Positions 3,600 through 39,426 of a DNA stretch of 40,973 bases are shown in pieces. Position 1 is the first letter of the stretch. Each line of letters opens with the position of its first letter. Made by a program: the position numbers and the translations under genes. This DNA is from Rhodospirillales bacterium (GTDB taxonomy: Bacteria > Pseudomonadota > Alphaproteobacteria > BOG-932 > Roseiterribacteraceae): NCBI GenBank assembly GCA_003165335.1, contig PLTD01000121.1, positions 53,790-94,762 of the forward strand, written 5' to 3'. The notes beneath the pieces are model-generated. The model was not told the DNA's origin and searched no databases. It saw nothing but the letters and a program-made list of their open reading frames with translations.

Positions 3600-4787
3600 C
3601 TATTCCGCCGCTGCAGCCATGTTGGTGTGGCCTAAAGCTTCTGCCGCATCATGTCCGATCAGACGATCGTGGTTCTGGTGCATTCGGATAAGGTTGACCT
3701 CACGTCTGCCCAATACGATCGACGGTACGGCGCCCGCTTCCATCTGGATCTGCGAACTTGACTGAATCGCCATATCCTCTTCAAGCGCCGTCTTCATCAG
3801 AAGGTCGGTCATATATTGCGCCATGGCCCGTGTTTCGTCGGTGGCATTCTTATGAGGGCCATAAGTGCGGAATATATAGGTGCACGTGCCTGGCTCTTCG
3901 CCGGGCTCGCTACGCTGAAAAAACATAATATGCTTGCTTCCGCCCACGACTGTGTTCGGAAAGATGGCGTTGGTAAAGCCATAGGGCAGCGTCTCCGGCC
4001 ACTCCTCTTCAGGAACATTCTTGAGGTCGAGTATCTGCTTCATCGGGGAAACAAGCGTCTGATGCAGACCGTAATCGAGATGCAGAAACTGACGTAGCAC
4101 GCCGGGTCCGACGGTAGTCGGATGCAGATAGGGGACGTGATAGCCCTCAAGCCCACCGTCGACCGCATGCTTCCAATTGATCCGGGCCGGGGCGCGGTAT
4201 TCGCCTACCAGTCGGAAATCCTCAAGGTTGTAATCGGCAATAATGCCGCCCATCTCGGCGCCAAAAAATTCGTCATAATCGACATGGCCGCTTGGCTGCG
4301 GATGGACCAGAACGACACCGTGCTTTTCGACTAGCGGCAACTCAATCAAGCCGCGCTCTTTCAACTGCTCCGGTTCGAATGACTGACGGCTCGGAACGCT
4401 TGTCAGGTCTCCATTCAGGGCAAACGTCCAGCCGTGATAGGGGCAGGTGAAGCCCTTTGCGTTGCCGCAGCCTTCAGCGAGCTTCACGCCACGATGACGG
4501 CAGGCGTTGAGAAAGGCGTGCGCCACACCATCCTTGCCTCGGACAAGAAGGATTGGTCTGCCCGCAATCTCGGTCGCGTAATAGTCGCCGCTTTCAGGGA
4601 AATCGCCGCTGTAGGCGATCAACTGCGGTCGGGTCAGAAAAAATTCCTGCTTTTCGAGATCGAAACGCGCCTTGTCGGTAAAGCGCCCGATATCGGCTTC
4701 CCAGGAAACTTCGCCCATCTCGTCACGGTCTTTGTCGTAGAACTCGATAATCCGTTTGGCGATAGCGACGCGTTCAGAGCGATCCAT
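3600..4787 (-). CDS. Rieske-type aromatic ring-hydroxylating oxygenase, alpha subunit (copy 1)
   Basis: A 395-aa catalytic subunit of a Rieske non-heme iron oxygenase. The Rieske cluster ligands are C96-x-H98 (ACRHRG) and C115-x2-H118 (CPYHGW). The mononuclear iron site is H217-x4-H222 (YHVPYLH), with D338 in LEEDMAIQ as carboxylate ligand. The residue three before H217, which couples the two metal centres, is glutamate (E214) rather than the aspartate of naphthalene dioxygenase. The start at 4787 is preferred because GGAAGGAA lies just upstream; a start at 4829 would add an unconserved basic tail. No beta subunit, ferredoxin or reductase is adjacent, so electrons must come from elsewhere. 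A paralogue of identical length is encoded at 38239-39426. The substrate is unknown. Confidence 0.93.
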   Translation of the reverse strand: MDRSERVAIAKRIIEFYDKDRDEMGEVSWEADIGRFTDKARFDLEKQEFFLTRPQLIAYSGDFPESGDYYATEIAGRPILLVRGKDGVAHAFLNACRHRGVKLAEGCGNAKGFTCPYHGWTFALNGDLTSVPSRQSFEPEQLKERGLIELPLVEKHGVVLVHPQPSGHVDYDEFFGAEMGGIIADYNLEDFRLVGEYRAPARINWKHAVDGGLEGYHVPYLHPTTVGPGVLRQFLHLDYGLHQTLVSPMKQILDLKNVPEEEWPETLPYGFTNAIFPNTVVGGSKHIMFFQRSEPGEEPGTCTYIFRTYGPHKNATDETRAMAQYMTDLLMKTALEEDMAIQSSSQIQMEAGAVPSIVLGRREVNLIRMHQNHDRLIGHDAAEALGHTNMAAAAE

Positions 4788-4831
4788 AAGACGATTCCTT
4801 CCCGTTAGGCCACGCTTCAACCGAAGCATCG

Positions 4832-12167: not shown

Positions 12168-13379
12168 TTAAGGTGTCACAACCCGCCAGTAGAGCGCATG
12201 CGATCCGTCGGTTAAATCGAACAGGTCGCGTCCTAACATATCGCCCGGCTTTTTGTCCTGTGAGTTGGTATAGACCGGATAGCCCTGATAGGCCCATTGC
12301 CGTGTACCGTCGGTGCGCAATGCGATCGACCAAAATCCCGAGGGCTCGCCATCCGATCCGGCCTTGAGCGGGAGCCATGTGTGAATACAGTCGCCATCGC
12401 AACCGGACGGTCCGATCGACCGTCCTACCGCAGGTGTTGGCGGAGGTCCGTCATTAACGCTGTAGCTACCGAAACTGAAACGAAACTTGTCGCGGGTATA
12501 GAGCGTCATGCCTTGCGCGTTCGTCAGCACTGTATTGTTGCCGTTGATCCGCGTTGTCACTTGGGCGGGCATGAAATAGCGTCTGAGTGCTGCCGGATGA
12601 AACTTTGCGTCGGCTTCCATACCTTTTGCGTCACCGGGCTTGCCGTCGCCGCTGAAGGTGTAAAGCGGTTTTCCCCTAAAACCCCATTGCCGACTTCCAT
12701 CGTCGCGCAAAGTCACCGTCCACTCGCCGATTGGCTTGGCGAGTTCGGCTGCCTTCAGCGGAATCCATATCGTGGCACAAGAACTGATACAGGCAGATAT
12801 TCCCGGCTGAGTATCGCCGTCGTAGCTGTAGAGCGTCATCCCGCGATAATCGACAAACACGTCTCCCTGCGCGTTCCCAACCGGGCGAAGAGTTACTGCA
12901 GCAGGGGATGGAACCTCGTCAGGCGATTGTTGCAACGTCGCAACTTGCCATTGACCGTTATCTGCCGCTTTGCCGTTTGTATCTCCCGGATTTGCGTCTT
13001 TGGCGAAGCGATAGAGCGGCTTACCCTTATAAGACCATTGCTTCGAGCCATCAGGCCGGCTGATTATCGACCAATCGCCGGCGGGTTTTGCATCAGCGGA
13101 CGCGGCAACAGCCGGCCATGCAGACGCGCAATCGCCGGCGCAGGCCGACTGACCGGGTGTGGTATCCCCTGCATAGACATACAGCGTCAGACCATTGGCA
13201 TCCGCGAAATAGCTCTGCGTACTGCTGTTAGGCTTTCCCGCCTCCAGCGCAGCACTATGAATGGCAGGCTCGACCGTGACCCCCGGAGGAGTAGCCGGAA
13301 CAGCAAAGTCAGCAGCGTAAAGAGGAAGCGAGATAAATGCTGCGCACGTCAGTGTGCTGGTAAGACACTGCCGTATCAT
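12168..13379 (-). CDS. Exported protein with three PF03640 (COG4315) secreted repeats
   Basis: A 403-aa protein with a signal peptide (cleavage near LYA-ADF, residue 22) and three copies of the secreted repeat PF03640, at about 58-145, 172-258 and 283-384. Each has GxTLY, a C-x3-C pair (C80/C84, C197/C201, C327/C331), a W(I/L/P)PL(K/A)A stretch, RxDGxxQWxYxGxPxY and a D..PGD end. Repeats 1 and 2 keep the Yx(FWY)xxD signature (LYVYAGD, LYSYDGD); repeat 3 has LYTRDKF and a roughly 15-residue insert. There is no lipobox cysteine, so it is probably soluble in the periplasm or secreted. Its ATG (13379-13377) shares one base with the stop of the DUF1552 gene (TGATG), which implies translational coupling. 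No function is established for this repeat. Confidence 0.9.
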   Translation of the reverse strand: MIRQCLTSTLTCAAFISLPLYAADFAVPATPPGVTVEPAIHSAALEAGKPNSSTQSYFADANGLTLYVYAGDTTPGQSACAGDCASAWPAVAASADAKPAGDWSIISRPDGSKQWSYKGKPLYRFAKDANPGDTNGKAADNGQWQVATLQQSPDEVPSPAAVTLRPVGNAQGDVFVDYRGMTLYSYDGDTQPGISACISSCATIWIPLKAAELAKPIGEWTVTLRDDGSRQWGFRGKPLYTFSGDGKPGDAKGMEADAKFHPAALRRYFMPAQVTTRINGNNTVLTNAQGMTLYTRDKFRFSFGSYSVNDGPPPTPAVGRSIGPSGCDGDCIHTWLPLKAGSDGEPSGFWSIALRTDGTRQWAYQGYPVYTNSQDKKPGDMLGRDLFDLTDGSHALYWRVVTP

Positions 13380-14716
13380 CACACGAACAATTCCGTCAGC
13401 GGCCGTGCCGTGCGCATCGAGCCGACGCCCCAGGCGTTGACCGACAGGCCCAGGCATTGCTGAACCGTCAACCCGACACGCGTGCCAGGTGCCCCATCAC
13501 CGGCCACATGCAGCCCGGTCTTGATCTTGCCACTGCCCTTTCCTCCCGCGAGGAAAATCGGAATGCTCTCCAACGTATGCTGCTTGGCATAGCCGCATTC
13601 GCTGAGCGCCATGACGATGGTGCGGTCGAGCAGAGTGCCGTCCCCCTCGCGCACGTCCTTCAGCGTCTCCAGTAGGGTTGCGAAGGAAAGCATGATCTCA
13701 TTCTCGAACCAGGCCGCGCCGGGCTGATACCCCAGCTTTTCGTCGATCGGGTCTTCATGGGTATGGATATGTTGTGTCGTCGGCTCGCCACCCTTGCGCA
13801 GCGACGAGGCGCCGTCGCTGAACGAAACATTCATAACTCGCGTCTGGTCGCAGGCCAGCGCGTGAGCCAAAATCTGGGCAAACAGCTTGTGATTGGCTGC
13901 CGCCATTTCGACCTCGGTCCCGGTCGGGATTTCCGCCGGCTTCGTGCCCGTCGCGCAGGCCTGGAGCGGCTGCGGCTTTTGCAGTTGCAACTCCATCTGC
14001 TGTTCGATCTGGCGCAGGGAGGTGAAATATTCGTCGAGCCGCGCCCTGTCGGCCGCGCCCAATTGCGCCGCTAGCTTGTCGCGGGGTTCCTTGATTGCCG
14101 ACAGCACGCTCTTTTCGGCCATGACGCGCGGGTCGGGCTTGAAGTCGGCAGCATTAGGATCGCGGAAATCCGGCCCGAACAGGCGGGCGTAAAGCGCGGC
14201 AGGCGAACCTTCCGATGCGTTGATCACGCTGTTGCTGCGCCGGCTGATTGTATTGTTGGGATTGCCCATCGCCGATACTTCCAGCGACCGGAACCGCGTG
14301 TTGGCGCCGGTAGCATCGGCGATCAGCACGTCGATCGATGGGTCGTTTTCCTTACCCGTGGTGCCAGTGATGATACCGCGCTGGCCCGACACATGCGGGA
14401 CCAGCCCGTTGCCGTCCATGAATGTGTTAAAGCCGGTGAAAATGCTGAGCTGATCCTTATAGGGGGTCAGCATGACAAGTTCATCCGGCATAGCCCAATC
14501 CGTGCCCAGAGCCTTGGGTTCCCAACGGCCCCGCGTCAGACCGCAACCCCAGAACCATGTCCCGAACCGGATCGGCAGTGGCGCGCCGCTGGCCAGCGCT
14601 GTGCCGTTCGCGTTCAGAAAGCAATCGAGGAACGGCAGGGCGACACTAATCGCCGTGCCGCCCAGTATACCGCGCATGAAGCCACGCCGGCTCGCCAATC
14701 TTTGGGTTACATTCAT
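13379..14716 (-). CDS. DUF1552 protein exported by Tat
   Basis: A 445-aa protein that matches DUF1552 (PF07586), a relative of the DUF1501 / sulfatase-like alkaline phosphatase fold. The N-terminus has a twin-arginine signal, SRRGFMRG (R10, R11), with a hydrophobic stretch to about residue 44. Family features include GTWFWGCGL, HVSGQRGIITG, SIDVLIAD, a GSPAALYARLFGP-like segment, AHALACDQTRVMNVSF, THEDP and LDRTIVMALSECGYAKQH. DUF1552 genes habitually sit beside DUF1592/1588/1585 genes. The start overlaps the stop of the upstream gene by 4 nt (ATGA). Tat export implies folding, possibly with a metal, before transport. The biochemical role is unknown in the literature I know. Confidence 0.92.
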   Translation of the reverse strand: MNVTQRLASRRGFMRGILGGTAISVALPFLDCFLNANGTALASGAPLPIRFGTWFWGCGLTRGRWEPKALGTDWAMPDELVMLTPYKDQLSIFTGFNTFMDGNGLVPHVSGQRGIITGTTGKENDPSIDVLIADATGANTRFRSLEVSAMGNPNNTISRRSNSVINASEGSPAALYARLFGPDFRDPNAADFKPDPRVMAEKSVLSAIKEPRDKLAAQLGAADRARLDEYFTSLRQIEQQMELQLQKPQPLQACATGTKPAEIPTGTEVEMAAANHKLFAQILAHALACDQTRVMNVSFSDGASSLRKGGEPTTQHIHTHEDPIDEKLGYQPGAAWFENEIMLSFATLLETLKDVREGDGTLLDRTIVMALSECGYAKQHTLESIPIFLAGGKGSGKIKTGLHVAGDGAPGTRVGLTVQQCLGLSVNAWGVGSMRTARPLTELFV

Positions 14717-16434
14717 TGTTCAACTCCCTGAAGAGCAGCCGATCTGACCGGCTTGGATTCTGTGTCCGGGGTCACGACCCGAAAGAAGACATCGCTGGTT
14801 GCGATTTGCCGCATCAGCGGCTGCAGCCGGTAGCCTTCGGCGGCGAAATCCTTCATCAGTGCGCCGCGTAGCCACTCGGTCTCGCTTTTGGTGGGCGCGC
14901 GGCCGACGGCATAGGCATAGAGGCGGTTGACGAGGCAGGCCGTGGTGGCGGGATGGTCATGGACCGCCGTGCCCAGCCCCTCGGCGTCGCTGAACTTCAC
15001 GCCGTCAATGTTGCCGCTGGCGTCGATCGTCGTGCCGTTCTCGCCGGCGCGGTAGGTGCCGATGGAATCGAAATTCTCCAGCGCCAATCCGATCGGGTCC
15101 ATCATCTTATGGCAACCGACGCAAGTCGGCTGGGTTGCATGGGCAGAAAGCCGTTGCCGTACGGTCTTGTAGAGCGGATTCTTGGTGTCCTGCACGATGT
15201 TGAAATTGACGTTGCCGGGCGGGTCGGGAACCTTCTGGCAGAGGATCGTCTCGCGTAGCGCCTTGCCGCGCAAAGTCGGCGAGGTGCGGCCGGGATGGGA
15301 ATGCAGCGCCAAGAAGCTCACCTGCATAAGAATGCCTGATCTCGGATCGCCGGCCGCAAATGTGTAGGGTTGCCAGCCGTCCGGTGTCGCGCCTGGAGCG
15401 TCCTTGGGCACCGGAATGCCGTAGACCGCCCCCAACTGCCGCGACAGAAACGTGTTGCGGGTTGTGAACAGGTCGCGGTAATCGCCGCCGCGGGTCAGCA
15501 GATGGTCGGTGATGGTGCGCAGAGTCTGCTCCTGCGCGTCTGTCGCCAAGCCGAAGCTGTATTTGGGATAAATCGCCGGATCTTTGGCCAGGTTATCGAA
15601 TCCGTCGAAACCCAGCATATCGGCGAAATAGGCCCGAGCACCCGCCTCAAGCCTGGGCGACGAGAGCATTCGGTCAACCTGCTTCTCTATGCCCTTCTGG
15701 GTATCCAACTCACCCTTCTCGGCGGCGGTCAAAAGCACTTCATCGGGCGCCGTATCCCATACGAAGAAACTTAGCCGCGCGGCCTTGGAATAGCCGTCAA
15801 GCGTCGTGCCGGCGGCGCCGCCCTTCGTCACTTCCCAGTCGAACAGGAATTCCGGCGACTGCAGCATGCTGGTCAGCGCAATTTCCAGTCCGGAATAGAA
15901 GTTGCCGACTGTCTTGGTCGCGTCGCCCGCCCCCTGAACGAGGGCTCCAAGCTCGACCTGTGTCAGCGGCCGGCGATAGAGCAGCCGACCGACTTGGCCC
16001 AGGAATTGCGTGGCGCATTTATCGTCCGGCGCGCCGACCGAGGCCGGCTGGCAATCGATCATGCTGTCACGGTGTTGCTTATCGAAAACCTGCGCAGAGA
16101 TGCTGCGCGCCATCTTCGCATATTGTTCAAGCCCGGAGGCCGGGACGCTGATTTTTCCGGCACCTACCTCAATAAGTCCGCCATCGCGGATATCCGGCTC
16201 GAACCGGCCGCCGATCTTGATATCCGGGCCGAACACATCGGCGATGACATGCTTATATTGCGCCTGAGTCAGCCGCCGTAGCACCGGGGGTCCGCCGGCG
16301 GATGCAGCCAAGCCCGCGCTCGTTTCCGTTCGGTCGCCGATGATATGCTGTACGCCAAAGATCGCCGCCGACGCGACGACAATCAGGGCAACGCCACCAG
16401 CGAGAATTACACCCTTACTTGCCACGCGCACCAC
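14713..16434 (-). CDS. DUF1592/DUF1588/DUF1585 planctomycete-type protein with one CxxCH
   Basis: A 573-aa membrane-anchored or secreted protein: a hydrophobic helix at about 9-30, then the DUF1587 start RRLTQAQY (53-60), DUF1595 (CQP...CATQFLGQVGRLLYRRPLT), DUF1592 (LTSMLQSPEFLFDWE to about 340), DUF1588 (RSGILMQVSFLALHSHPGRT to CHKMMDPIG) and DUF1585 (GVKFSDAEGL to the end). CVGCH (C438, C441, H442) is a single c-type-heme-like motif at the place where this family has it. The start is read as GTG at 16434 after GAAGG, overlapping the previous gene by 20 nt; GTG at 16425 is an alternative. Together with the DUF1552 partner it may form an exported redox or hydrolytic complex, but that is inference. 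Confidence 0.9.
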   Translation of the reverse strand: MVRVASKGVILAGGVALIVVASAAIFGVQHIIGDRTETSAGLAASAGGPPVLRRLTQAQYKHVIADVFGPDIKIGGRFEPDIRDGGLIEVGAGKISVPASGLEQYAKMARSISAQVFDKQHRDSMIDCQPASVGAPDDKCATQFLGQVGRLLYRRPLTQVELGALVQGAGDATKTVGNFYSGLEIALTSMLQSPEFLFDWEVTKGGAAGTTLDGYSKAARLSFFVWDTAPDEVLLTAAEKGELDTQKGIEKQVDRMLSSPRLEAGARAYFADMLGFDGFDNLAKDPAIYPKYSFGLATDAQEQTLRTITDHLLTRGGDYRDLFTTRNTFLSRQLGAVYGIPVPKDAPGATPDGWQPYTFAAGDPRSGILMQVSFLALHSHPGRTSPTLRGKALRETILCQKVPDPPGNVNFNIVQDTKNPLYKTVRQRLSAHATQPTCVGCHKMMDPIGLALENFDSIGTYRAGENGTTIDASGNIDGVKFSDAEGLGTAVHDHPATTACLVNRLYAYAVGRAPTKSETEWLRGALMKDFAAEGYRLQPLMRQIATSDVFFRVVTPDTESKPVRSAALQGVEQ

Positions 16435-17587
16435 CTTCAGACGACATAGCGGGGGTAAGCTCAGCCCGTTGATCGGCGGCGTGCGTGATGAACGCCGGCA
16501 CCGCCTCCATCAGCCAAGCCGACGAGATCATCGTATTTTGGCCGGTCTTAGGATCTGGATAGGCATCGGCGGCATTTTTCAGGGCATAATAAAAGCCTGG
16601 CAAATCGACATTGTTGGTCGCATCCACACCCCAACCCTCAGATCCATACTGCCAGTAAAATGGGAACCAGGGATGATAGCCGCCGAGAATGGCCTTCAGG
16701 CTGCCGTCCGGCGCGATATTTATTCGCATCCGTGCTTCCTTGAAATGGAATTCCTGTATCCAAAAAGGATCCCCAAGCATGTTCATGTCGAAATGGTCGG
16801 TTGTCAGTACCCCGTCCTTGATCCGGCCATGGACGACATTATGCCATCGCGGGTTGGGGTCCGAGGTGAAGGTCAGGTTCGTTTCGACATTACCTCCGCT
16901 ATCCTTAGTCGGGGCCTCGATAGCCCGCGTAATAGTGACGGTCACATCCGGGCTGTTCTGAGGGTCTTCAATATTGCTTATCTCGACCAGCCAGGCCGGC
17001 ATCTGCTCGTAGAGAACATTCCAATAATTGAGTTGCAGCGGAGGACGATCGGTCAGCGTATGGGTCTTCAACTCATTGATGCAGCCAATGACGCGATAGA
17101 GCTGGTTATCAACACCCTTCTCACCTGTCTCAGGATCGGTGAAGTCACCCTTTTTGTCCTTGCCGTCCAGGTCGAATCCATAGCCTATCGGCCCCTCGAC
17201 CAGTTTCAGATGCGGGTCTGGCATCGACGTCGGGTCGGCATAGACGTCGGCAGGCTTGCCGTTGATGCGCCCGCGCATCTGCGCCACAGGGATCGTCTGC
17301 TGTGCCTTAGAAAGGTCTAGGAATTCATTGATGTATTTGTCGATCTGAGCTTGCGGCAGGCCGCTCTGTTTCAATTCGCGCCGGTAATAGATTTCAGGTC
17401 CGTCATTGACGCCGTGTGGACAATCCCGGTTCTGCGGGTCGGCATATTCCGCGACGTTAAACCAGCTGACCACGAAGCCCTTGGTCTCGGCCGCTATTGC
17501 ACACGGCGCGACCGACGCCAGTAACGTCAGGGCCGCAAGGCCAGCTTTCAGTCTTCCCCGCCATAGGGCGGCCCCGTTTTCACGCAT
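16415..17587 (-). CDS. Exported protein of unknown function, first gene of the DUF1592/DUF1552 operon
   Basis: A 390-aa protein with a signal peptide (core LAALTLLASVAPCA, cleavage near AIAA-ETK at 33). The mature part starts FVVSWFNVAEYADPQNRDCP and is rich in Trp, Tyr, Asp and Asn. It contains a HPWFPFYWQYGSEGW stretch and a motif MLGDPFWIQEFHFKEARM. Only two cysteines remain in the mature chain (in DCPHG and GCINE), which could form a disulfide. I do not recognise a named domain. GAGAGGAG precedes the ATG ideally. It heads the operon, with the DUF1592 gene overlapping its end by 20 nt, so it is likely a dedicated partner or substrate-binding component. Confidence 0.85.
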   Translation of the reverse strand: MRENGAALWRGRLKAGLAALTLLASVAPCAIAAETKGFVVSWFNVAEYADPQNRDCPHGVNDGPEIYYRRELKQSGLPQAQIDKYINEFLDLSKAQQTIPVAQMRGRINGKPADVYADPTSMPDPHLKLVEGPIGYGFDLDGKDKKGDFTDPETGEKGVDNQLYRVIGCINELKTHTLTDRPPLQLNYWNVLYEQMPAWLVEISNIEDPQNSPDVTVTITRAIEAPTKDSGGNVETNLTFTSDPNPRWHNVVHGRIKDGVLTTDHFDMNMLGDPFWIQEFHFKEARMRINIAPDGSLKAILGGYHPWFPFYWQYGSEGWGVDATNNVDLPGFYYALKNAADAYPDPKTGQNTMISSAWLMEAVPAFITHAADQRAELTPAMSSEGGARGK

Positions 17588-17657: not shown

Positions 17658-18035
17658 CTAACGCACCGCCTGAGTGGGGTTTTCCAAATAAGGCGGCGTA
17701 TAAATCACCAAAACCTTGGCCGAGCGGCTGCCGGTGACGGTAAAGACATGCGCCATGCCCTTCGGGAAGAAAGCTGCATCACCCGGCCCCATGTCGCGCG
17801 ACTGACCATCGATTTCGGCCCGCGCAGTACCGCTCAGGACATACACCACTTGGTCGAGATTTGGATGGGCGTGCGGCAGTGCGCCTTGCCCCGGTTCGAC
17901 GGTACCTTCCAGAAGCTCAAGATGATCAGACCCGACAGTTTCGGGCCCGATAAGACGGCGATTAACGGTGCCAGTGTGATTGGCCGGATGATAGCTATCG
18001 ACATCGTCAGCATTGATGAAATAGCGCCGCGCCAT
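17658..18035 (-). CDS. Cupin-domain protein
   Basis: A 125-aa single-domain cupin (cupin_2 type). Motif 1 reads GALPHAHPNLDQVVYVLSG with H55 and H57 and with D61/Q62 where a glutamate usually stands. Motif 2 reads GPGDAAFFPKGMAHVF with H96. The three histidines could bind a metal, so a small dioxygenase, isomerase or sensor role is possible. The start at 18035 is fixed by the strong site GGGAGGAAAC; a start at 18068 would lack one. It lies 70 nt upstream of the four-gene DUF operon on the same strand and shares a promoter-proximal motif with it. Function cannot be named. Confidence 0.85.
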   Translation of the reverse strand: MARRYFINADDVDSYHPANHTGTVNRRLIGPETVGSDHLELLEGTVEPGQGALPHAHPNLDQVVYVLSGTARAEIDGQSRDMGPGDAAFFPKGMAHVFTVTGSRSAKVLVIYTPPYLENPTQAVR

Positions 18036-18060
18036 GTTTCCTCCCGAGGTCCGGATAGGG

Positions 18061-18093
18061 TCGGACATTTCATTTATTGGAGCCTATGTCCGA
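18061..18093. promoter_or_regulatory. Inverted repeat TCGGACAT / ATGTCCGA between divergent genes
   Basis: Perfect 8-nt arms (18061-18068 and 18086-18093) are separated by 17 nt, in the 206-nt region between the cupin (minus) and the MFS gene (plus), starting 26 nt before the cupin ATG. This is the expected place for an operator. Apart from it and the ribosome sites, I see nothing else in this gap. Confidence 0.4.
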
Positions 18094-25405: not shown

Positions 25406-26629
25406 ATGACCGACATTGCTACTGCCGCCGCCGACCGGGTTCTATCCGGGCGCGCCTGGGATGATTTCTGCGAGAACCTGCGCCGGGCCGGCCACATGGT
25501 CGACCGGTTCGGAGACGAGGCGGAGCCGCTGGACAAGGCCGAATGGTATCGCTTCATGACCCGTTTAGCCCGCAACGCCTTCGAACGTTATATGGAAAAC
25601 TCCGAGCCGGACCGGCCACGCCTGCGCGATGCCCCCTGGCGGCAGGGCATAAATTTCCAGTCGCCCGATCAAGACCATTTGCTGGCCGAATTCATCGACG
25701 GCTCGCGCGAATACAAGATCACCGGCAATCGCGGGACCATTCCCTATTTCGTGATGGCCTCTTGGAATGCAAAGCAGCCGGCCGATATCGGCGCGCGCGA
25801 CTGGGCGGAAAAAGGCGTTGAGGGCTTGAAGGAGTTCGACCCGGCGACATTGCAGACCACGGGGTTTCTGCAGAGCAACTCAATCGATTTCGACGCCGAC
25901 GGCAATTTCGAAGTGACCGTCAGCCAAAAGCCTTATCGGCAGAATTGGCTGCGCATCACCGCAGATTGCGTCGGATTGCTGATCCGCAACGTCTATCACG
26001 AACGCGGCAAGGAAACGCCGCCGACCTTCAAGATCGAGTTGCTGGGCGACGCGGAACCACGGCCCATCCGTGCCGACGAGGTCGCGCAGAACCTGGCGAA
26101 AAGCGGTCAGATGGTGCTGGGCTATGCCGAGCTTGTCCGATCCTGGTGGCAGGACAATCTATCGAAACGCCCCAACCGCGTGCGCTTTTCACAGGCTACT
26201 TATCTCAGCAACGGCGGTGTCGCCGACCGGCATTTCGGGTTCGGAACCTGGGATGTGCCGCCGACCAAGGCCCTCGTGCTCGAATTCACCCCGCCCGAGT
26301 GCGAGTACTGGATTTTCCAGCTGTGCAATATGTGGCAGGAAAACCTGGACAATTACGAAGATGGACAGGGCTATGTCACCAAATTCACCGCTCACTACGA
26401 ACCGGGTGGACTGGTACGCGTCGTCATCAGCGCGACCGACCCCGGTATAGGTGCCAACTGGGTCGAGACGTTCGGCCATGTGAAGGGCGGCATGGGGCTG
26501 AGGCTTATCAAAACCAACAACCCGCCGCCGGTGACAGTCTATCTGGTCTCACTGGATGATTTGAAGGCCAAAGGTCTTGCCAGCCTTACGGCCGAGAGCG
26601 CGATCGTGAGCGGTGAGGTTACGGATTAG
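25406..26629 (+). CDS. DUF1214 domain protein
   Basis: A 407-aa protein ending in a DUF1214 domain (PF06742), seen in YLSNGGVADRHFGFGTWDVP, LVLEFTPPECEYWIFQLCNMW and DPGIGANWVETFGHVKGGMGLR. The N-terminal half is helical and has no signal peptide, so it is probably cytosolic. DUF1214 proteins are frequent in actinobacterial and sphingomonad steroid, terpene and aromatic degradation loci, but no reaction is established that I know of. AGGGGAATTACCG precedes the ATG. It is divergent from the SnoaL-like gene and ends at a strong terminator. Confidence 0.87.
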   Translation: MTDIATAAADRVLSGRAWDDFCENLRRAGHMVDRFGDEAEPLDKAEWYRFMTRLARNAFERYMENSEPDRPRLRDAPWRQGINFQSPDQDHLLAEFIDGSREYKITGNRGTIPYFVMASWNAKQPADIGARDWAEKGVEGLKEFDPATLQTTGFLQSNSIDFDADGNFEVTVSQKPYRQNWLRITADCVGLLIRNVYHERGKETPPTFKIELLGDAEPRPIRADEVAQNLAKSGQMVLGYAELVRSWWQDNLSKRPNRVRFSQATYLSNGGVADRHFGFGTWDVPPTKALVLEFTPPECEYWIFQLCNMWQENLDNYEDGQGYVTKFTAHYEPGGLVRVVISATDPGIGANWVETFGHVKGGMGLRLIKTNNPPPVTVYLVSLDDLKAKGLASLTAESAIVSGEVTD

Positions 26630-38238: not shown

Positions 38239-39426
38239 TCAGTTGCTGGGCGAAAGACCCATCTTGCGCTTCTGCTCTCGCACCGAGGCTTCGTTGTCGT
38301 GGCCGATGGCCGCGTCATAGGCCTTGTGCATGCGGGTCAGGTTGATTTCGCGCTTGCCGAACAGGACTGAGGGAACGGCCCCCTCTTCCATCATGATCTG
38401 CGAGCTGGTCTGAACCGGCAGGTCTTCCTCGAGAGAGACCTTCATGAAGAAGTCGACGCCGGCCAGATGGCGGGCACGCTCTTCGGGGGTGGCGTTCTTG
38501 CGGCCGTACAGCCGGAAGATATAGTCGCACACGCCCGGATCTTCGGTGTTGGGCTCGGTCCGCTGAAAGAAGAGGACCGGGTCGCCACCGCCGATGACCG
38601 TGTTTGGGAAGATCGAATTGGTCGAAGTGAAATAGCAGGAATGCGGCCATTCCGCTTCCGGAATGTCCTTCAGCTTCAGAATGTCCGGACGCGGCGCGAT
38701 CAGAGCATGATGATCGCCGAACGGCCGGTGCAACAGCTGCGCGAGGCCGCCGGTGCCAAAGGTGTTCTGATGCAGGAACGGGACGTGATAGGCCTCCAGC
38801 CCCCCGTCGACGGCATGCTTCCAGTTGATCCGCGCCGGGGCGCGATAGGCTGAGAGCAGCTCATAGTCGGGAATGTCGAAATCTTCGAGATAGGCCTTCA
38901 TCGGCCCAAAGAACTCGTCGAAATCGAGGTGACCTTCCGGGTTCGGATGGACCAGGATCATGCCCATCTCCTCGGCGATCGGCAGGGCGATCAGGTCGCG
39001 CAGCTGCTCCGGCTCGAAGGCCTGGCGGCTGGGAACGCTGATCAGCGCGCCGTCGTTGTTGTAGGTCCAGCCATGATAGGGGCAGGTAAAGCCCGCGCCG
39101 TGGCCGCAGCCCTCTGCCAGCTTGACGCCGCGATGGCGGCAGGCATTGAGAAAGGCCTTCGCCTCACCTTCCTTATTGCGCGTGATCAGGATCGGGCGTC
39201 CGGCGATGTCGGTCGCATAATAATCGCCCGGGTTCGGCAGATCGGCGGTCAGCGCGATCAGCTGCGGCCGCTCGAGGAACAGCTTGCGCTTCTCCAGCTC
39301 GAACCGGTCCTTGTCGATGAAGCGGCCGATATCGGCCTCCCAGGATTCCTCGCCAAGCTCCGGCTGGCCCTGTTCGACGAGGCGAAGCACGTCCTTCGCG
39401 ATTGCTACCCGTTTTGCCTTATCCAT
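38239..39426 (-). CDS. Rieske-type aromatic ring-hydroxylating oxygenase, alpha subunit (copy 2)
   Basis: A 395-aa paralogue of the oxygenase at 3600-4787, with the same length and domain order. Rieske ligands are C96, H98, C115 and H118. The iron site has H214-x4-H219 (YHVPFLH) and the Asp of LEEDLPVQ. The bridging position is glutamate (E211) in both copies. By eye well over half of the residues agree, with the closest match in the Rieske half and divergence around residues 220-270, where the active-site pocket is expected. A perfect AGGAGGT lies upstream of the ATG at 39426. It follows an MFS gene by 30 nt, so uptake and oxidation are probably co-expressed. No ferredoxin or reductase is in the window. 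Confidence 0.94.
   Translation of the reverse strand: MDKAKRVAIAKDVLRLVEQGQPELGEESWEADIGRFIDKDRFELEKRKLFLERPQLIALTADLPNPGDYYATDIAGRPILITRNKEGEAKAFLNACRHRGVKLAEGCGHGAGFTCPYHGWTYNNDGALISVPSRQAFEPEQLRDLIALPIAEEMGMILVHPNPEGHLDFDEFFGPMKAYLEDFDIPDYELLSAYRAPARINWKHAVDGGLEAYHVPFLHQNTFGTGGLAQLLHRPFGDHHALIAPRPDILKLKDIPEAEWPHSCYFTSTNSIFPNTVIGGGDPVLFFQRTEPNTEDPGVCDYIFRLYGRKNATPEERARHLAGVDFFMKVSLEEDLPVQTSSQIMMEEGAVPSVLFGKREINLTRMHKAYDAAIGHDNEASVREQKRKMGLSPSN

Follow-up and report, generated by a model that had tools for sequence, protein, structure and literature searches.

A conserved, multiplied operon of four exported proteins, most likely an uncharacterised redox enzyme, in a Rhodospirillales bacterium

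What do four genes that overlap one another and all encode exported proteins accomplish together? The question is raised by a stretch of 40,973 nt from contig PLTD01000121.1 of a Rhodospirillales bacterium (assembly GCA_003165335.1), hereafter the window, in which four minus-strand genes, here numbered 1 to 4, overlap successively by 20, 4 and 1 nt, as confirmed from the coordinates of their open reading frames (a second GTG, 6 bases downstream, is an alternative start of gene 2, and the first overlap would then be 14 nt). A preliminary description of this DNA had proposed one exported system, possibly a heme-dependent oxidase or electron-transfer device, and its account of the parts was accurate: export signals are present on all four proteins when their N-termini are read, and gene 2 encodes one CxxCH and gene 4 three C-x3-C. 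According to our analysis, the set most likely constitutes an exported, as yet uncharacterised redox enzyme for the breakdown of bulky organic compounds.

These four genes belong together as a genuine, conserved unit, which is met again in many bacteria from soil and fresh water. The source genome harbours nine paralogous operons, with the gene-1 family, DUF1592 and DUF1552 in this order at all nine, while the PF03640 gene (gene 4) is part of seven, in one of them with another gene in between; in total there are nine PF07631 genes, nine DUF1552 genes and 11 gene-1 relatives. With gene 1 as bait, 79 further related loci were retrieved, labelled mostly as Rhodospirillaceae, other Alphaproteobacteria, Gammaproteobacteria, Steroidobacter gossypii and Phenylobacterium, plus some Marinimicrobia metagenome-assembled genomes (MAGs). 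The order 1-2-3-4 is kept at most of these loci, a linkage rate inflated by the bait, the less biased figures being those from the source genome and from the class sample given below. The 46 complete operons show median intergenic gaps of 5, 3.5 and 25 nt, and the pairwise distances of their four proteins are correlated, with values of 0.78-0.86 where permutations gave at most 0.19; this correlation includes shared organismal history. Considering that the set recurs nine times in one genome and in dozens of other loci, it does not reflect chance. The proposal that the four families belong together is thus strongly upheld by their neighbourhoods, and rare co-occurrence is not what we found. At L063, L085, L095 and L098, genes 1 and 4 are adjacent without genes 2 and 3, suggesting two sub-pairs, i.e. 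1+4 and 2+3.

The DUF1592-DUF1552 pair is the widespread core, found also in Planctomyces and Pseudoalteromonas. In a class sample of 289 genomes, gene 1 was present in five, all with PF07631, which scored above its cut-off in six; in a phylum sample of 397 genomes, DUF1552 occurred in nine and gene 1 in two of these nine. In these samples, gene 1 is therefore confined to genomes having the pair, while the pair also exists without gene 1. Apart from the MAGs labelled Marinimicrobia, we saw gene 1 in alpha- and gammaproteobacteria only. A second genome of the same genus has nine gene-1 relatives and seven PF07631 genes, and two genomes of a sister genus have neither; sampling at the order level was uninformative, the order comprising four genomes. 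What had been described as one exported system is a conserved unit but not a single one: its copies form a family of systems, and this multiplication suggests that they are specialised for different substrates.

Gene 2 matches the Pfam domains PSD3, PSD5, PSD4, PSCyt3 and PSD2 (DUF1587/1595/1592/1588/1585) above their curated cut-offs and, judging from its motifs, encodes a putative c-type cytochrome, periplasmic or lipid-anchored. The CxxCH occurs exactly once in all 78 homologues, in which H432, C128, C140, C399 and C500 are fully conserved as well. None of the internal Met residues is invariant (M273, the most conserved, reaches 88 %), so that a His-ligated or open heme is possible. Of the membrane anchor described previously, the hydrophobic export N-terminus stands, but it may be a signal instead of an obligate anchor, since a simple pattern finds a lipobox in 39 of the 78 homologues, and most of the remaining 39 start like a signal peptide.

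Gene 3 belongs to DUF1552 (HXXSHH, PF07586; 153.8 bits against a cut-off of 30), keeping the two outer His of H-x3-H and having E for the last H of HXXSHH; its twin-arginine translocation (Tat) motif, SRRGFMRG, was read from the sequence. A model based on a 71-sequence alignment (predicted local distance difference test, pLDDT, 89.3; predicted template-modelling score 0.84) has the predicted fold of the alkaline-phosphatase superfamily. Foldseek returned a steroid sulfatase (E 9e-6), and VIA-align returned Xac NPP (Z 17.0, 3.3 A, 243 residues), then PafA, ENPPs and sulfatases, all 50 of the 50 matches listed being superfamily members. This predicted metal-enzyme fold supports the idea that the Tat protein is a folded cofactor subunit. 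Searching PDB sequences with a DUF1552 profile gave no match, and an hhalign comparison with four sulfatases of the source genome fell short of overall significance (E 0.12), with just a C-terminal 'LDxTIVxxxS[DE]xG' segment aligning plausibly.

Mapped by motif spacing and fold, not by coordinate-level superposition, the invariant H108 (H-x8-TG) matches the Cys of C-S-P-T-R-x4-TG in these four sulfatases, and instead of a Thr, Ser or Cys nucleophile this position holds His in 71/71 sequences. H316-x3-H320 lies where we take NPPs to carry their Asp-x3-His motif, and D/E373 corresponds in spacing to the Asp of the sulfatase 'SDNG'. H108, R141, H316, H320, D325, H380 and R413 are invariant in 71/71 homologues. 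In the gene 3 subgroup, Leu, Cys or Met occupies the first metal-ligand position, whereas distant DUF1552 proteins keep Asn/Asp there. In the final alignment, these distant proteins, including those of Planctomyces and Pseudoalteromonas, retain H108, D129, H316 and H320 throughout, and all of them but one retain H380, an earlier alignment having set one member differently at 108. The conserved His set makes a His-rich, non-classical metal site probable in gene 3, and ordinary sulfatase or phosphatase chemistry less likely.

Genes for electron carriers lie within or beside the operon at some loci. Two Sphingobium plasmids have, after genes 1-2-3 and in place of PF03640, genes for cytochrome c' (PF01322) and cytochrome b561 (PF01292), and another Sphingobium copy ends in an exported glyoxalase-superfamily protein. 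In Novosphingobium RL4 the order is cytochrome c', PF03640, genes 1-2-3, a glyoxalase-like protein, HiPIP and a b561-like frame, with the b561, PF03640 and glyoxalase assignments made by resemblance only. A HiPIP above the Pfam cut-off adjoins the operon at L042, L050 and L052, the first being the one of the nine operons that the source genome's single HiPIP gene abuts; L070 has HiPIP-like and cytochrome c'-like frames nearby, by pattern only. Together with the invariant heme motif and the predicted metal-enzyme fold of gene 3, this linkage supports the oxidase or electron-transfer idea in outline. As the operon lies on tomato-root Sphingobium plasmids, tomatine catabolism was also considered; a term search of PMC10653915 returned neither cytochromes nor such genes, and no link is claimed.

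A scan of 84 immediate neighbours yielded 10 TonB receptor barrels, nine CHRD proteins and four NHL propellers, with no dominant catabolic family. One copy in the source genome is followed 30 bp after gene 3 by a KshA-type Rieske oxygenase, another adjoins a molybdenum hydroxylase with a 2Fe-2S subunit, and a third an alpha/beta hydrolase and a dienelactone hydrolase. The window itself contains two ring-hydroxylating Rieske oxygenases, an HpcH aldolase, an FAD protein and glycosidases. Such varied catabolic neighbours fit a module reused in several pathways.

From gene conservation, order, paralogy, the heme motif, the predicted fold and carrier linkage, all established by computation, we infer metal binding, catalysis, electron flow and the kind of substrate as follows. 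Gene 2 would be a mono-heme c protein, periplasmic or held by a lipid anchor, and gene 3 a Tat-exported, folded metalloprotein with the alkaline-phosphatase fold, in which His would replace the hydrolytic nucleophile and the metal loops would offer His-x3-His, Asp/Glu and a further His; it may be the catalytic or substrate-activating subunit. The beta-rich, perhaps barrel-shaped product of gene 1, which might bind a bulky ligand, and the PF03640 repeats of gene 4 would be lineage-specific secreted partners. Electrons would pass between the heme protein and HiPIP, cytochrome c' or cytochrome b561, tying the reaction to the respiratory chain, and the module would perform a step in the catabolism of complex compounds imported by TonB receptors.

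How far this goes can be graded. That the set is an exported oxidoreductase module of several components, present in multiple copies that are specialised for different substrates, has in our judgement an even chance of being right. It is tempting to speculate on a new class of exported metalloenzyme, in which an alkaline-phosphatase/sulfatase fold has been turned into a redox site with four invariant His, served by a mono-heme c partner and connected to the respiratory chain, with as many as nine copies per genome for different substrates; this we offer tentatively, as a rather unlikely possibility. Several points weigh against the redox interpretation. Carrier genes stand beside a minority of loci only, a common substrate was sought among the neighbour genes and none emerged from their varied catabolic functions, and to our knowledge none of the families has an established reaction. 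The bait-inflated linkage, the organismal history within the distance correlation and the spacing-based mapping of the gene 3 site count in the same direction.

Alternatively, gene 3 could be a working metal-dependent hydrolase of phospho-, sulfo- or other esters with an unusual site, the heme protein serving as a sensor or structural partner. Known members of the superfamily are mostly hydrolases or transferases, D/E373 and D129 are conserved, and the distant DUF1552 proteins have their Asn/Asp ligand. We nevertheless consider a hydrolase improbable, given the His at the nucleophile position in 71/71 sequences and in the sampled distant members, the Leu, Cys or Met at the first ligand position of the subgroup and the redox carriers linked to the operon. 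With the superfamily (NPP, sulfatases, PafA), the fold (Z 15-17, ~240 residues) and core motif spacing are shared at ~12 % identity and with no sequence-profile match, while gene 3 differs by His at the nucleophile position, His-x3-His for Asp-x3-His and a subgroup devoid of the first metal Asp.

Previously, the DUF1592-DUF1552 pair was known just as conserved neighbours with no assigned function. In Verrucomicrobia, PSCyt3 genes usually lie beside a family of unknown genes, and carbohydrate roles have been suggested (PMC5615132); a related PSD/PSCyt domain pair occurs 41 times in Rhodopirellula baltica (PMC2754498). The four-gene set as a whole did not turn up in the literature, most subscription papers being outside coverage. 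The pairs of Planctomycetes, Verrucomicrobia and some Gammaproteobacteria share with the window operon the Pfam domains, the gene order 2-3, the CxxCH and the conserved DUF1552 His. In contrast to the window operon, neither of the two pairs inspected, from Planctomyces and Pseudoalteromonas, had a visible gene 1 relative next to it; their heme proteins are larger than gene 2 and, in one, carry an extra CxxCH or a carbohydrate-binding annotation. The pair on a Planctomyces plasmid is followed by a 3-keto-disaccharide hydrolase (L154:8800-9453), a possible hint at the substrate.

These relatives raise the possibility that the redox enzyme oxidises sugar or polysaccharide parts, e.g. to 3-keto sugars or to prime another enzyme. 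This would be in line with that hydrolase, with the carbohydrate-binding modules and sulfatase neighbours of Verrucomicrobia PSCyt genes (PMC5615132), with a DUF1592 protein bearing CBM2 in Cellvibrio (PMC6004670), with the starch-binding annotation of the Pseudoalteromonas DUF1592-type protein beside DUF1552, and with glycosidases and a rhamnosidase near Sphingobium copies. However, Pfam detected no carbohydrate-binding module in the window's proteins, and aromatic/steroid-type oxygenases are also among the immediate neighbours, which leaves a glycoside substrate doubtful. Cbp2D and Cbp2E of Cellvibrio japonicus (PMC12542752), which are exported, one with a cytochrome domain, and tied to polymer degradation, offer a comparison of working principle only; their domains differ (X158, X183, X132, CBM2) and no homology with the window proteins is claimed.

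Gene 1 represents an undescribed, lineage-specific family. As the preliminary description had stated, it cannot be placed: domain scans gave no Pfam or NCBIfam model above cut-off. Its N-terminus reads as a Sec signal with AxA, its invariant residues are C56, C169, D341, D345 and S355, and its model (pLDDT 70.8) has a beta-rich core with no Foldseek match at E<=0.001. VIA-align gave avidin/lipocalin-type rows at Z ~6, a score that common arrangements also reach, and no family is claimed. At L045 (C4 of the source genome, 7133-10993), three tandem gene-1 copies precede one DUF1592-DUF1552-PF03640 set.

Gene 4 matches PF03640 (Lipoprotein_15) in five stretches (205.4 against a cut-off of 24.4 bits) and its N-terminus reads as a Sec signal with AxA; among its homologues the number of C-x3-C varies from one to three. 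It resembles SCO0930-type PF03640 lipoproteins, remaining below the NCBIfam equivalog cut-off (166.3 against 275 bits), and differs from them in being embedded in this operon. Nothing in the present analysis speaks for the scaffold role once proposed for it. At L048 (C205 of the source genome, 1634-7195), a PF03640 protein follows genes that resemble, by eye, those for hydrogenase maturation (HypF/HypD/HypE), a case with no relation to the operon. A non-catalytic complex that captures substrate for TonB receptors, with a structural or sensing heme, would agree with these receptors being the commonest neighbours (10/84), the weak likeness of the gene 1 core to small ligand-binding barrels and the repeats of PF03640, but is very unlikely in view of the invariant heme motif and His set and of the cytochrome b561, cytochrome c' and HiPIP genes within the same clusters.

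Table 1. Coordinates of the operon, its motifs and the adjoining gene in the window
Feature	Position	Strand	Description
Gene 1	16415..17587	-	Secreted 390-aa protein, undescribed family; predicted beta-rich core, medium confidence
Gene 2	14713..16434	-	GTG start; exported mono-heme c protein by motif, PSD3-PSD5-PSD4-PSCyt3-PSD2 (DUF1592-type)
Gene 3	13379..14716	-	Tat-exported DUF1552 (HXXSHH) protein; predicted alkaline-phosphatase/sulfatase fold
Gene 4	12168..13379	-	Secreted PF03640 repeat protein, three C-x3-C
CxxCH heme-c motif, gene 2 (C438-H442)	15109..15123	-	
His108 codon, gene 3	14393..14395	-	Putative sulfatase/NPP nucleophile position, from motif spacing
His316-x3-His320, gene 3	13757..13771	-	Putative position of the alkaline-phosphatase superfamily Asp-x3-His metal motif
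Small cupin gene	17658..18068	-	71 bp upstream of gene 1, same strand

The cupin gene is a possible first gene of the four-gene transcript; in the neighbour scan of related loci it was not recurrent beside the operon. The Rieske oxygenase alpha subunits (window 3600-4829 and 38239-39426) flank the region with aldolase and amidohydrolase genes, probably for aromatic or polycyclic catabolism. A small exported CHRD protein adjoins the operon at L106:7219-7752, with similar cases in L107, L110, L112-L118, L123, L126 and L127; these are mostly Rhodospirillaceae MAGs, and the CHRD gene is often just upstream of gene 1. DUF1214-related proteins lie near two of the nine operons (window 25406-26629, a PF06742 match; L040 4743-5855, by eye).

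New here are the paralogue-rich, compact proteobacterial version of the operon, the undescribed family within it, the predicted fold and candidate active site of DUF1552, and the linked electron carriers. An isolate, Steroidobacter gossypii S1-65 (L089), has all four genes, and Sphingobium herbicidovorans MH has DUF1592, DUF1552, cytochrome c' and b561, with gene 1 annotated as two reading frames. Abundant families with no assigned reaction thereby become directly testable in organisms for which isolates exist.

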